Source: Pseudanabaena galeata CCNP1313 (lineage in GTDB: Bacteria; Cyanobacteriota; Cyanobacteriia; Pseudanabaenales; Pseudanabaenaceae). Taken from it: a stretch of 64,000 nt of DNA. Position numbers and translations under genes: made by a program. Below, in pieces: positions 40,376 to 51,447 of this stretch; the stretch's first letter is position 1, and the number at the start of each line of letters is the position of its first letter. The notes under the pieces were generated by a model, which was not told the DNA's origin, searched no databases, and saw nothing but the letters and a program-made list of their open reading frames with translations. Where the stretch lies: assembly GCF_029910235.1 (NCBI RefSeq), contig NZ_CP112874.1:558001-622000 (forward strand), in the 5' to 3' direction.

Positions 40376-40478
40376 TGACGTGAGTTCGATATAGCCATTT
40401 GCGGCGTGCTTCGCACGCCGCAAATGGCGAAAAATGGTAAGAATCGCTTAGCGATTCTTACCATAACGTGAGTTCGGA
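40376..40478 (+). repeat. palindromic element, family A, copy 2 (right end changed)
   Basis: AGTTCGATATAGCC, hairpin CCATTTGCGGCG-TGCTTCGCA-CGCCGCAAATGG, then AAAATGGTAAGAATCGC-TTA-GCGATTCTTACCAT. The usual TTTTTCGC...TCGAACT end is replaced by AACGTGAGTTCGGAAT, the start of another element. Confidence 0.85.
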
Positions 40479-40612
40479 ATAAGCTACAAAATTTTAGGAG
40501 ATAAAACAGTAAAAGCCTCGCTTTGCGAGGCTTTTACTGTTTTATCTCCTAGATAGGGTTCCCTATCTAGGAGATAGTTTGAAATTAACCCGAACTGAGG
40601 TTAATTAACGTC

Positions 40613-40730
40613 ATCAGTTCGACGAAAGCGAAAAATGGTAAGAATCGCTAAGCGATTCTTACCATTTTTCGCCATTAGCGTCGTGCGAAGCACGACGCTA
40701 ATGGCTATATCGAACTCACGTTTAATTAAT
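40613..40730 (-). repeat. palindromic element, family A, copy 3
   Basis: Complete, inverted orientation: CATCAGTTCGACGAAAGCG, AAAAATGGTAAGAATCGC hairpin, then CCATTAGCGTCGTGC-GAA-GCACGACGCTAATGG and GGCTATATCGAACTCACG. Confidence 0.88.
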
Positions 40731-42882: not shown

Positions 42883-44277
42883 TTTAACTAACGCGAACGA
42901 GAAGTCCCGCACTCTATCCGTATACAAGGATGAGTGACGGGATGAAAGTGAGCCAGAAACAAATTGAGCGATTCTCGAATCAATAGAAGTTATCTATGCT
43001 ATAATTAGCTTATCAGTATTCTACAATCTTGATAAATGTATAAGGCGTACAAGTACAGAATCTATCCCACAAGTGAGCAAGAAACCTTGCTTGCAAAGTC
43101 TTTTGGCTGTGCGAGATGGTTCTGGAACTATGCCTTAAACCTATGCCAAGAAACCTATAAAAATACTGTCAAGGGGTTAACTAGAGGGTATATACAAGGC
43201 TTACTCCCTGCACTCAAGAAGGAATACGAATGGTTAACCGAGCCGTATTCTCAATGCTTGCAAGTAGTCGCATTGAATCTATCCACTGCCTACAAAAATT
43301 TCTTTGACAAACGGGCAATGCTGCCTAAATTCAAGTCAAAGCATGGTAAGCAGTCAATTAGTTATCCCCAAAACGTCAAGTTTGACGGTGACAAGATTAG
43401 TTTACCTAAGATTGGATTAGTCCACTGTCAGCGCCATCGTGGCTTTGATGGAACTATTAAAACTGTCACTGTTTCTCGCAATCCCGATGGTAAACATTTT
43501 GTTTCCGTCTTGGTTGACGATGGCAAAGGTAATCCTGAATTAATGCCAGTGGATAAAGCTATTGGTATTGATGTGGGATTAACCCATTTTGCGATTACCA
43601 GTGACGGCTCTAAATTTGATAATCCTAGATTTTTTATCAAACATCAACGCAACTTAAAGCGTAAACAGCAAAAGCTATCCAAGAAAAAGAAGGGTAGCCA
43701 AAACCGTAAAAAAGCAAGATTGGCTGTGGCAAAAGTTCACTCCAAAATTGCCAGATGTCGCGAAGATTTTCTGCACAAGCTGTCCCGCAAGATAGTAAAC
43801 GAAAACCAAGTTATTGCAGTAGAAAATCTCAATATCAAGGGCATGGTCAAAAATCATAATCTAGCCAAAGCGATTAGCGATGTTGGCTGGGGTATGTTCT
43901 GCACAATGCTCAAATACAAGGCTGAAAGTGAAGGAAGGCAATATATCGAGATTGATCGATGGTTCCCTAGCTCTAAAACTTGCCATGTATGCCTAAATCG
44001 AGTTGATAACCTCACTCTTGATGTTAGGGCATGGACTTGTAAGCATTGTGGTACTCACCATGACCGTGATGTAAATGCAGCGATAAACATTAGAAATGAA
44101 GCCTTGCGGATACTTCGACTCGGCTCAGTACGAGTTATCTCGTTAGGAACTAGCGAGTCTGCCTGTGGAGGAGATGTAAGTCGATCTGGTAAAACTTCGG
44201 TTTTGTTGGACGCTATCCCCGTTGAATCAGGAAGCCAGCTCTGTACCGCCTAAGCGGTCAGCGTCTGGTAGTTCACT
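42883..44277 (+). mobile_element. IS200/IS605-derived element with tnpB only, copy 2
   Basis: Identical to copy 1 over the compared length. Left flank AGAAAGA|TTTAACTAACGCG, right end ...GGTAGTTCACT then CCTTAAATTC. It lies upstream of ndhF, about 120 bp from its start, and may influence its promoter. The identity of the two copies suggests recent transposition or gene conversion. Confidence 0.88.
43036..44253 (+). CDS. tnpB: TnpB RNA-guided endonuclease, identical copy 2
   Basis: 405 residues, residue-for-residue the same as the protein at 39003-40220, with all RuvC acidic residues and zinc-finger cysteines intact, so likely active. Its guide would be drawn from sequence following the right end (CCTTAAATTCAACC...), different from copy 1 (TCACTAAATTATC...). 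Confidence 0.93.
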   Translation: MYKAYKYRIYPTSEQETLLAKSFGCARWFWNYALNLCQETYKNTVKGLTRGYIQGLLPALKKEYEWLTEPYSQCLQVVALNLSTAYKNFFDKRAMLPKFKSKHGKQSISYPQNVKFDGDKISLPKIGLVHCQRHRGFDGTIKTVTVSRNPDGKHFVSVLVDDGKGNPELMPVDKAIGIDVGLTHFAITSDGSKFDNPRFFIKHQRNLKRKQQKLSKKKKGSQNRKKARLAVAKVHSKIARCREDFLHKLSRKIVNENQVIAVENLNIKGMVKNHNLAKAISDVGWGMFCTMLKYKAESEGRQYIEIDRWFPSSKTCHVCLNRVDNLTLDVRAWTCKHCGTHHDRDVNAAINIRNEALRILRLGSVRVISLGTSESACGGDVSRSGKTSVLLDAIPVESGSQLCTA

Positions 44278-45942: not shown

Positions 45943-45999
45943 CCACAAGAAAAACATTGAAAGTGTTGCTTTGCAACACTTTCAATGTTTTTCTTGTGG
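45943..45999. terminator. 25-bp stem hairpin at the end of the mannosidase gene
   Basis: CCACAAGAAAAACATTGAAA, GTGTTGC-TTT-GCAACAC, then TTTCAATGTTTTTCTTGTGG. Directly follows the mannosidase stop, so a probable terminator. Confidence 0.75.
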
Positions 46000-46000
46000 T

Positions 46001-49000
46001 TCATTTGGTGATACAGAAAAAAGTTTTAATTTCGTATGGTTTAAATGTGATTGTAAAGTAGTTTAAAGTAGTTTTATCTCGTGAAATTATAGTATTCCTC
46101 TTTTCCATTAAATTGCATTCCCAAATCTTATCTGTTTGCAAAAGTAGATCTGAAATCTCAATATTGGTTTCAGTGGGTTTACCATGGGACTCATAAAATC
46201 GCATAATCCAACCTGACTGATCTTGCGATCGCTTAAAAGCCGAGAGAATGATGTTTGGAGCAGAAACTTGCAAAAAGCTTTGTTGGCTTGCTTGAATTGG
46301 TGAACTTTGGAGAACCAGTGGATTATTCAATTCCTGAGCAAGTTGAACAATATTTGCTTCGCGCCAATCTCCTTGGTGAGGAACTAGTCGATAAGTAAAT
46401 TCGTGCTTGCCGCGATCGCTATTTGGAGTCGGCCAGCTAGGGCTACGCAGCAACGTAAGCCTCAGACAGTCGGGCTTAGCGTCATATCCATACTTACTAT
46501 CATTGAGAATGCTTAAACCCAAACCAAAAGGGTATTCTCCCGACGAAAGCGGGAGAATACCCTTTTGGTTTGGGGAAAATGCAATATCTGCCCAATATTG
46601 AGCAGGAACTTCCCATTTAGCTTTGGCTACAGATGTTTCACCTAAAGTACTACGCTGGATCGTTCCCATTGGGATTTCGTAAGTTGCGTAGGTTGATTGC
46701 CAATTTACAGGAAAAGCAACTTTGACTAAAGTATATTCCTCTTGCCAATCAACCCAATTTTGTACGGTAATAAATGCTTCAAAGGCAGTTAGTTGAATCT
46801 CTTGGATAAAGGTTGAATTACGGAATTTCTGAATAATGCGTAAGGATACTAGTAAACTACAATTTTCAACGATCTCAATTGATTCAAGGGTTGCAGATTC
46901 TAATTTTTTGTTTTCGTAATCTGGATCAATATTCCATGCATCCCAATATTGTCCTTTGTCTTCAAAAAACTGCAATTCACTAGCTGATCTGAGTATTGAC
47001 CTTTGCGATCGCTTATCAAATATTTGCGCGATCGCCCCAGTCTTGAGATCAATCTCTACTTGAAGATATTGATTTTCTAGATAGTATTTATCACTGTCAG
47101 AATCAATCTTCAAAAATGCATCAGTCTCAGTGATGCCAGATTCAAGCTCAGTAAATCCAAAACTAGGAATATTTTCTAACCAGCACAAGGAATTATCTGG
47201 CATTCTAATGAGTTGAGATCGCTGCCAGTTAAGGAAATTCCATGCTTGCAGATTTGTGCTTTCTAAAATTGTGTGAGGGAGAAGGTGATCGCAGATTTCC
47301 CTTACTTCAGTCCAAGTGCGATCGGCATCAGCAAATACTTCTGGAATCGATGTCCCTGGCAAAATATCATGAAATTGATTGAGTAATAATCCTTGCCATG
47401 CTTGTTCTAATTGAGCTTGAGGATAGGTAATTTTATTGACTAGAGAAGCGATCGCGCTATATTTTTCGGCATTACCTAGGAGAACTTCCACTTGACGATT
47501 TTGCTTCTTCTGATCGGCTTTAGTAGTAAAAGTGCCGCGATGAAACTCTAGATACAGTTCATCTTGCCAAACTGGTAAATCTGTGGGTAGTTTTGCTTTC
47601 ACCCCTAACAGAAAATCTTCTAATGTGCTAGGTTGCATCTTAAAAAAGATTGGCGAATCAGCCCACTTACGTCCTAGGTTGAGCATATCTGCAGTTGGTC
47701 CTCCACCATGATCGCCAACTCCATAGAGCCATGCAGTTTCGGGGATATCGTGTTTTTCTTCTTGGTTGGCAAGATATTTAGCGATCGCGACAGGTTCCAA
47801 TCCCTGACCAATTTCGTTACTAAAATAAGTGAAAATTTGACTTCCATCCACGCCTTCCCACCAAAAGATTTGATGAGGGAATTTGTTGGTATCATTCCAC
47901 AAAAGCTTTTGGGTAACGAATGCTTCAAAACCACTTTTTAAAAGGATTTGTGGCATTTGCCAATGAAAGCCAAAGGTGTCAGGTAACCACGCAATTTTGA
48001 CTTCTTGATTAAATTTCTCTCGAAAATATTCCTGCCCATAGAGAATCTGCCTGATTAAAGACTCTCCACTCGGCAAATTCCCATCAGGTTCTACCCACAT
48101 CCCACCAATGAGTTCCCATTTACCATCTGCCACTGCTGTTTGAATACGAGTAAATAATTCAGGATATTCCTGCTCCATCCATTGATAGGAAACAGCCGTA
48201 CTCTGATTAAAAATTAGCTCTGGATACTGCTCTTGCAAATTCAATGCTGACGTAAAAGTACGCTGCATCGCATTTTTAGTTTCAGCGATCGCCCATAACC
48301 AAGCCACATCGATATGTGAATTACCAAGAATATAGATTTGGCGTTGTTTGAGAAATTCGCTATATTGCAAAAGTGGTTCGCGAATTTCGGCTAGTTTCTC
48401 GAAGAAGCGATCGCTTGCGATCGCTTCACACAAGTCAAATAAAGCAATTAAATTCCTAGTAGCAGTTTCTAATGGTTGTAAATCCATTTGATGTTTAGTA
48501 AAAGCTGGAATATAGGTTTGGAGAACCTCTAATTCAGTAGCAAACTGATCTGGGTCACAGGCTTGATCAGGATACTCAAAAACTAGTTCTGAAAGCTGTA
48601 AAGCGCCAATATCATGCTTAGGACTATTAAGCTTGATCTCTAGAGTAAATTCATCACTAGGTTTGGCATGATCAGTTAATAAAATTCGACATTTCTGATC
48701 AAACAAATCACCTTCTTGGACTTTTTGATTGTTAACCCATATCTCACAAATATCTGCCCACCAAATTAGATTTAAGCGAATAGTTGCACCTACTGTTGAT
48801 AATCCTGCATAATTTTCTGGAACTAGCCAAATTTGTCTTAAACAAATATTTTCTTCCCTTTGCAAGAAAGATAGCATTGGTTTATTTTGCTTAGAATTTA
48901 CCGTTGCTAAATCCTCCCAAACTTCTTGTTTATTTTGTCTTTGCCAATTACCGAGTATTGATAAATGCGATCGCAATTTTAATTTACTAATAACTTGAGA

Positions 49001-49024
49001 TAAATTTTCTACTAGAGTAGTCAC
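46001..49024 (-). CDS. alpha-mannosidase, glycoside hydrolase family 38
   Basis: 1007 residues. GTG start with AGGAG upstream. A GH38 catalytic domain lies at about 225-520: zinc ligands H237 and D239 in GNSHIDVAWLWAIAETKNA, the nucleophile D349 in IAWLPDTFGFHWQMPQ, and further blocks LYGVGDHGGGPTADM, LLLNQFHDILPGTSI. A beta-sandwich C-terminal domain follows (KYYLENQYLQVEIDLKTGAI). It likely hydrolyses alpha-mannosyl oligosaccharides, possibly exopolysaccharide or storage glycans. An in-frame palindrome (46518-46574) adds about 19 residues at ~817-835, ahead of LSILNDSKYGYDA. Confidence 0.93.
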   Translation of the reverse strand: MTTLVENLSQVISKLKLRSHLSILGNWQRQNKQEVWEDLATVNSKQNKPMLSFLQREENICLRQIWLVPENYAGLSTVGATIRLNLIWWADICEIWVNNQKVQEGDLFDQKCRILLTDHAKPSDEFTLEIKLNSPKHDIGALQLSELVFEYPDQACDPDQFATELEVLQTYIPAFTKHQMDLQPLETATRNLIALFDLCEAIASDRFFEKLAEIREPLLQYSEFLKQRQIYILGNSHIDVAWLWAIAETKNAMQRTFTSALNLQEQYPELIFNQSTAVSYQWMEQEYPELFTRIQTAVADGKWELIGGMWVEPDGNLPSGESLIRQILYGQEYFREKFNQEVKIAWLPDTFGFHWQMPQILLKSGFEAFVTQKLLWNDTNKFPHQIFWWEGVDGSQIFTYFSNEIGQGLEPVAIAKYLANQEEKHDIPETAWLYGVGDHGGGPTADMLNLGRKWADSPIFFKMQPSTLEDFLLGVKAKLPTDLPVWQDELYLEFHRGTFTTKADQKKQNRQVEVLLGNAEKYSAIASLVNKITYPQAQLEQAWQGLLLNQFHDILPGTSIPEVFADADRTWTEVREICDHLLPHTILESTNLQAWNFLNWQRSQLIRMPDNSLCWLENIPSFGFTELESGITETDAFLKIDSDSDKYYLENQYLQVEIDLKTGAIAQIFDKRSQRSILRSASELQFFEDKGQYWDAWNIDPDYENKKLESATLESIEIVENCSLLVSLRIIQKFRNSTFIQEIQLTAFEAFITVQNWVDWQEEYTLVKVAFPVNWQSTYATYEIPMGTIQRSTLGETSVAKAKWEVPAQYWADIAFSPNQKGILPLSSGEYPFGLGLSILNDSKYGYDAKPDCLRLTLLRSPSWPTPNSDRGKHEFTYRLVPHQGDWREANIVQLAQELNNPLVLQSSPIQASQQSFLQVSAPNIILSAFKRSQDQSGWIMRFYESHGKPTETNIEISDLLLQTDKIWECNLMEKRNTIISRDKTTLNYFTITFKPYEIKTFFCITK
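46518..46574. repeat. 57-bp perfect hairpin inside the alpha-mannosidase gene
   Basis: Left arm CCCAAACCAAAAGGGTATTC continuing to TCCCG, loop ACGAAAG, then CGGGAGAATACCCTTTTGGT ending TTGGG: a 25-bp perfect stem. Length 57 keeps the frame and encodes PNQKGILPLSSGEYPFGLG in the C-terminal domain. Confidence 0.9.
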
Positions 49025-51092: not shown

Positions 51093-51135
51093 GCTTAATT
51101 CCTAATAAGATAGGCAGTGCATAGCACTGCCTATC

Positions 51136-51447
51136 TTAGATTTTACCATTTCGACAAGATTGAAAAATATTGATTACTTCTTGAGGTACTTGCTTAGTTT
51201 CTCTGGCGGCGGTGTCAATTTTGAGAAAATCAGCAAAGGTATATTGCGATCGCAGTTTGTCTAAACTACAAGTACAGAATTCTTTACTATTGGTAAATTC
51301 ACAACCTTTCATAAAAGTTTTGATTACCTCTTGGGGATATTCAAACTTCTCTTGTTTAACGGGTTGACTCTCCTCAGCCCACGACATAGAGATTCCACTA
51401 CTAGCTAGGACAAGTGTACTGAGAGATAGGACTAGATGATGACGCAT
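51136..51447 (-). CDS. small exported protein with a cysteine-rich core
   Basis: 103 residues. Signal peptide to about residue 24 (LVLSLSTLVLASSGISMSWA). The mature part has C-x(8)-C-x-C (MKGCEFTNSKEFCTCSLDKL), TFADFLKIDTAARETKQVPQ, and one late cysteine (FQSCRNGKI). Resembles small periplasmic proteins of unknown function. A short palindrome (AGGCAGTGCATAGCACTGCCT) precedes the downstream gene. Confidence 0.7.
   Translation of the reverse strand: MRHHLVLSLSTLVLASSGISMSWAEESQPVKQEKFEYPQEVIKTFMKGCEFTNSKEFCTCSLDKLRSQYTFADFLKIDTAARETKQVPQEVINIFQSCRNGKI

Follow-up and report, generated by a model that had tools for sequence, protein, structure and literature searches.

Arm-to-arm copying as the probable basis of a perfect coding palindrome in a Pseudanabaena GH38 alpha-mannosidase gene

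How a long, perfect palindrome can persist inside a reading frame, and what keeps its two arms complementary, is the question raised by a locus in a 64,000-nucleotide stretch of a 5.84-Mb genome (G000:C1:558001-622000; hereafter the window, to which positions refer unless prefixed with C1). A single open reading frame (ORF) of 1007 residues with a GTG start spans 46001..49024 on the minus strand and encodes a GH38 alpha-mannosidase, with matches to the GH38 N, middle, C and C2 domains (Pfam PF01074, PF09261, PF07748 and PF17677). Inside this ORF and in its frame lie, in the coding direction and likewise on the minus strand, a first arm of 25 nt (46550..46574), a 7-nt loop (46543..46549) and a second arm of 25 nt (46518..46542), the two arms being 100% complementary. 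The initial annotation, which had reported a perfect in-frame inverted repeat at 46518-46574, was accurate in this respect, and the peptide SPNQKGILPLSSGEYPFGLG is encoded at the position that it had named. The RNA fold of the palindrome was calculated at -47.3 kcal/mol, compared with -14.9 kcal/mol for dinucleotide shuffles (z -12.5). A predicted structure of the protein had a mean pLDDT of 45.8 and was left unused.

The 57 nt had been taken for an added segment. The site does carry surplus, in-frame sequence, but the net gain is smaller than the palindrome itself: the segment bounded by the conserved W and YGYD measures 99 nt in G000 against 51 nt in the six rows from other genera, which leaves 48 nt (16 residues) rather than the full 57 nt. 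Solved structures of Ams1-type mannosidases showed a gap of about 16 residues at the same place (two alignments, among 19 matches). Orthologues were searched for in 26 genomes of the genus, here comprising Pseudanabaena and close relatives among its named members, and the GH38 gene was found, complete or partial, in 24 of them; the palindrome site was readable at 21 same-genus loci, G000 included, and at six loci from other genera. Within the genus, the W-to-YGYD stretch ranged from 51 to 99 nt over the 21 loci, and an AGAG...CTCT base was common to the short and long forms of the loop. A strong hairpin was present in nine of the 21 genomes (G000, G012, G005, G017, G008, G020, G010, G019 and G014), with folding z values of -4.6 to -8.9 against letter shuffles; its occurrence in nine separate genomes led us to reject an assembly artefact. 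One further genome, G024, has a decayed hairpin (z -2.9), and the other 11 have no long hairpin (z -2.4 to +1.2), nor was a hairpin found at this site in G013, a 22nd genome outside this set. In a gene tree built with the palindrome segment removed, and in which the G010 row spans only about half of the gene, the carriers are found at three separate positions, with weak support for several inner branches, which is compatible with a single old gain and later losses as well as with repeated gains. The G010 locus (L008) has an in-frame TAA in its GH38 gene, which reflects either a broken gene or a sequence error, this genome being metagenome-derived.

Were the peptide itself under selection, for instance as a functional surface loop, the palindrome would be a by-product. 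G024 lends this reading some support, in that it retains a similar peptide (SPNQEGSLSPSTVENSLDFG) although its palindrome has largely decayed, which indicates that peptide and palindrome can separate. The same genome goes part of the way towards what the initial annotation had named as evidence against its own proposal, namely orthologues with the same residues and no palindrome. However, the 11 same-genus genomes without a long hairpin and the six rows from other genera have a shorter loop of other sequence. Moreover, the arms are aligned such that second codon positions in one pair with third positions in the other; paired changes in the stem therefore alter the protein, and selection on the peptide alone would not maintain 25 perfect pairs. 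We thus regard a selected peptide as a very remote prospect and infer that the segment has no function of its own at the protein level.

The stems at the GH38 site differ between species yet remain paired. Between G000 and G012, two paired positions differ (pairs 8 and 14), each changed on both sides, and one of them is a transversion pair (A-T versus C-G); CCAAACCAAAAGGGTATTCTCCC in G000 corresponds to CCAAACCCAAAGGATATTCTCCC in G012 and G005, and the opposite arm differs to match at both places. Between G010 and G019, one matched pair differs (T-A versus G-C), also a transversion pair, so that one of the three compensated pairs involves the gene with the TAA elsewhere in its frame. As read from the letters, the consequences for the protein are Gln/Pro together with Phe/Leu, and Gly/Asp together with a silent partner. 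The loop of G000 matches that of G012 and G005 at five of seven letters when inverted and at two of seven directly (chance 0.013 per comparison, the two comparisons sharing G000). One-sided transitions, read by hand at the stem base in G012 and G005, at one pair in G008 and G017, and at the base in G008 and in G010, are all of the G-U kind in the mRNA sense, as selection on RNA would produce. Taken by itself, the evidence from this site is thin: within close groups only three pairs are compensated, and the loop is not exactly inverted.

The rest of the genome offers many more hairpins, and the suggestion that the coding palindrome has a long, perfect stem like those of the intergenic hairpins of G000 was upheld. 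Across 1.2 Mb of G000, 783 hairpins with perfect arms of at least 12 nt were found, and 681 with arms of at least 14 nt. Nearly all are extragenic: of the 783, 12 are located well within ORFs of 200 residues or more, some of them uncertain as genes, and within the first 400 kb, 10 of 245 lie inside ORFs of at least 100 residues. Two order-3 Markov copies of the 861 kb of ORF DNA contained two hairpins and one, respectively, all with 12-nt arms. With a minimum arm length of 12 nt, the window contains 0.69 hairpins per kb, and 18 loci surrounding the GH38 gene in relatives range from 0 to 0.93 per kb. Samples of 50 kb gave 0.26 per kb for a Pseudanabaena plasmid and 0.04 per kb for each of three others, from E. 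coli K-12, a Trichormus plasmid and a Nostoc plasmid. Two same-genus loci (L046 and L049; 12.8 and 10.8 kb) had no hairpin of this size, against up to 0.93 per kb in others, and the trait may therefore vary among species. By intergenic class, densities were 3.71 per kb between convergent genes, 2.41 per kb between tandem genes and 2.07 per kb between divergent genes. Transcription termination as the sole role was rejected, since divergent gene pairs, too, have many hairpins between them, even though the density peaks between convergent pairs.

For a comparison of orthologous hairpins, 1.2 Mb of G000 were set against 1.18 Mb of G012, about a fifth of each genome. Seventy-nine such hairpins were found, 37 of equal length, of which 36 were used; the 42 pairs of unequal length and one pair below 55% identity did not enter the counts of changes. 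Among the unequal pairs that were viewed, some have nested or extra hairpins and some have apparent matched indels, which were not counted. The 36 hairpins comprise 694 base pairs, among which 28 two-sided, compensated changes of unpolarised direction were recorded, whereas 1.66 were expected at the flank divergence of 8.5% (Poisson 1e-24); one-sided or broken pairs were as numerous (30). The reverse comparison, starting from G012, gave 29 two-sided changes against 2.47 expected and 25 broken pairs, over 38 hairpins and 710 pairs. Both directions together cover 43 distinct hairpins, 18 of them with at least one two-sided change. Eight of the 28 two-sided changes adjoin another. They occur in convergent, tandem and divergent regions alike, the last with six in five hairpins. 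Of 18 loops of 3 nt, seven are the same in the two genomes, seven are exactly inverted (6e-9 at a chance of 1/64) and four are otherwise different, the figures for the reverse comparison being nine, four and six of 19. Among 30 loops of at least 3 nt, 17 are closer to the direct form and 12 to the inverted form, with one tie. Within three pairs of the stem end lie 22 of 29 one-sided changes and one of 28 two-sided changes, a skew that is predicted both by copying between arms and by selection on RNA. The hairpin directly past the end of the GH38 gene (45943..45999) retains a 15-bp perfect core in its G012 orthologue, with one-sided changes closer to the base. Hairpins are not all kept, as seen at 51106-51138, where the G000 copy is perfect and the G005 orthologue has no perfect arm of 6 nt.

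Considering these comparisons together, we conclude that arm-to-arm copying at the DNA level would be the main cause of the paired changes, and that the 57 nt in the GH38 gene are probably a coding inverted repeat kept palindromic by such copying (template switching, also termed 'quasipalindrome correction'). In the proposed mechanism, a strand would fold into a hairpin during replication and the polymerase would take one arm as the template for the other, such that a mutation in a single arm would either be lost or come to be present in both arms, with occasional inversion of the loop. Hundreds of inverted repeats throughout the genome would be subject to this copying, and at the GH38 locus the enzyme would tolerate a peptide that follows the DNA. 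Two results are those expected of template switching, namely two-sided changes well above chance, at the GH38 site as two pairs between G000 and G012 and one between G010 and G019, and inversion of the spacer across the genome.

The paired changes could instead be compensatory mutations passing through G-U intermediates, with the hairpin kept by selection at the RNA level, for example through ribosome pausing or decay of the GH38 mRNA. This reading, which we hold to be improbable, draws on the very stable calculated fold, the folding scores of the nine carriers, the hand-read one-sided transitions at the GH38 site and the enrichment of transitions among the 28 two-sided changes relative to the flanks (Fisher p 0.047). 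It predicts mainly transitions and no loop inversion, yet transversion pairs account for seven of the 28 two-sided changes and for two of the three compensated pairs in the gene, and inverted loops were found; both observations point to arm copying. Mismatches oriented by transcription were G-U in four cases, A-C in four and other in 12, and this lack of a G-U bias, together with the transversion pairs, favours copying of DNA over selection on RNA structure. The presence of two-sided changes between divergent genes, and the absence or decay of the hairpin in 12 same-genus genomes, also argue against it. A known RNA family was rejected, all Rfam matches in the region falling below the gathering scores. 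Some selection at the RNA level may possibly operate alongside arm copying, given the excess of transitions.

Arm-to-arm copying might also proceed by recombination between the arms, through gene conversion or cruciform resolution, which overlaps the preferred explanation as another form of it. The same two-sided changes and loop flips would be expected, and the counts separate neither form from the other. Arms of 15-30 nt are, however, short for RecA-type exchange, and we consider recombination unlikely and infer that template switching during replication is the most likely form of the copying. A missing palindrome nuclease was considered as a reason for the richness in hairpins and was rejected: all but one of 29 genomes searched gave an SbcD match, 27 of them above the cut-off, and all but one of 20 gave an ExoVII match, with G000 positive for both. 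The C-terminal family of E. coli ExoI was matched in none of 20 genomes, but among 14 controls it was matched only in E. coli, so that no special loss is indicated.

A different origin would be insertion, in frame, of a mobile palindromic element of the MITE, REP or Rickettsia type, with the different stems representing independent insertions or swaps at a hot spot. The genome, with its hundreds of hairpins, does contain a true multi-copy family with fixed flanks. Members of this 71-bp family consist of TAGGACAT, a 26-bp stem, a 3-nt loop and GATTTGTC, and are dispersed, with examples at G000:C1:485842 (L061) and G000:C1:705368 (L072) and on four plasmids of Pseudanabaena sp. ABRG5-3. In 1.2 Mb, 54 rows had the expected length, and a selection on flanks and on the initial six letters of one arm yielded 40 copies; two with fewer than 15 of 26 positions paired, a criterion that bears on pairing itself, were dropped, as they resembled an indel shift and a chance match, leaving 38. 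These gave 107 two-sided against 15 one-sided cells, with a mean of 20.8 and a maximum of 33 in shuffles, the cells not being independent events since the copies share ancestry; all 40 copies gave 122 two-sided and 30 one-sided cells and 13 changed on both sides and unpaired. Perfect stems are present in 26 of the 38 copies, and the changes comprise 19 transversion and 11 transition pair types. The loop reads TTC in 15 copies, GAA in 11, TTT in eight, AAA in three and otherwise in one, and thus occurs in both orientations within the same flanks.

The GH38 element lacks the dispersed copies with common end motifs that characterize REP/RAYT or MITE elements and that this separate family possesses. 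Rickettsia palindromic elements are described, in the passages concerned, as in-frame elements about 150 bp long that form ten multi-copy families and encode a conserved peptide (PMC10969869), and REPs as repeated and tagged, some of them inside genes (PMC3733652). The GH38 palindrome resembles both in being palindromic and within a gene, but at 57 nt it is single-copy and varies in sequence by species, with no family of copies sharing a peptide. The initial comparison with Rickettsia could not be sustained, as the stem has no second copy in G000 (next match at E 0.57) and differs by species at one and the same site. Against about 1500 other hairpins from the parts of G000 and G012 that were read, its own orthologue aside, the best scores were 25 and 24 and the maximum for 20 shuffled stems was 23, so that nothing stood clearly above shuffles. 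The stems of G000 and of G012 and G005 are, furthermore, plainly one and the same, with few paired changes. Those of G017, G008 and G020, of G010 and G019, and of G014 are so unlike that separate origins are possible, and the carriers are scattered on the tree; even so, we judge an inserted mobile element to be improbable as well. A translational bypass (hop/byp) element, which the ribosome skips and which is thereby free of constraint on frame and stops, was likewise rejected on reading-frame grounds, as in all 21 same-genus loci both flanks appear in one frame and the intervening segment is free of stops.

Arm copying of the kind preferred here has precedents. In genes of S. cerevisiae, template switching between the arms of inverted repeats has been described to homogenize arms, invert spacers and change amino acids (PMC8604942). 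The present case is similar in that inverted repeats lie in coding DNA, arms are homogenized, loops inverted and amino acids altered. In yeast, however, the arms tabulated for spacer inversions measure 10-16 bp and the events are recent ones among strains; the GH38 stem has 25 bp, its paired changes separate species, and the bacterial genome around it contains hundreds of long stems. In the evolution of RNA genes, compensated changes and loop inversions have been explained as one mutation event by template switching (PMC8794818, in the relevant passages); that system concerns structural RNA under selection for its fold, while ours comprises a protein gene and intergenic hairpins. For nematomorph mitochondria, perfect inverted repeats were reported in translated genes, and template switching from arm to arm was discussed as their possible origin (PMC6649704), although both arms there encode conserved protein and the repeats reach 284 bp, compared with a variable surplus segment in a bacterial gene. 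That bacterial genomes have an excess of palindromes has long been recognized (PMC4060949). Prokaryote surveys describe palindromes as over-represented in most bacterial phyla, with an extreme coding excess in some genera including Cyanobacterium, and cite template switching as a possible source; they are repeat counts and, in the passages concerned, include neither orthologue comparison nor Pseudanabaena (PMC4060949, PMC10434271). No report of concerted hairpin evolution in Pseudanabaena was found in the literature searched by titles, openings of abstracts and passages. Arm copying as a process is known already; the new elements are how densely it occurs in this genus and the case of a coding stem that drifts in step across species.

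Hundreds of replicate hairpins, including one in a protein gene, constitute a natural system for reading template switching from sequence comparison. In palindromic DNA, paired covariation alone is no proof of a selected RNA structure, nor is covariation of residues proof of a protein contact, and the GH38 segment would be coding sequence steered by DNA copying rather than by selection on the protein. More speculatively, arm copying in this Pseudanabaena lineage might be so frequent that inverted repeats are self-perfecting, and perhaps self-lengthening without a transposase: they would seed from short chance palindromes, such as the AGAG...CTCT base of the GH38 loop, grow, drift while staying perfect, flip their loops and at times colonize reading frames. 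We put this forward tentatively, as an idea with some chance of being right; if true, such repeats would impose linked amino acid changes that mimic structural coevolution.

Some further inverted repeats were noted. One of them, outside the window at G000:C1:1301509-1301545, is a perfect inverted repeat of 14 bp in coding sequence for IHKVRINPGLYVF, in a gene that looks like ispG; in G012 the orthologue specifies identical residues but has only part of the pairing, the palindrome differing by synonymous changes. Also outside it, two ORFs contain in-frame palindromes of the CCCCTCTCCC type, with peptides such as PSPSGRG (G000:C1:758303-758361 and 1401648-1401710); they look like one repeat family, and no orthologue of these ORFs was found within the portion of G012 that was read. 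At G000:C1:1171358, the matching place on G012 contig C6 is longer, with other long hairpins nested in the outer one. Within the window, two long hairpins directly follow a TnpB-like ORF at 43036-44253, which is 62% identical to annotated cyanobacterial TnpB proteins, and a long inverted repeat at 40378-40721 has arms of 87 nt that are 95% complementary and 170 nt apart.
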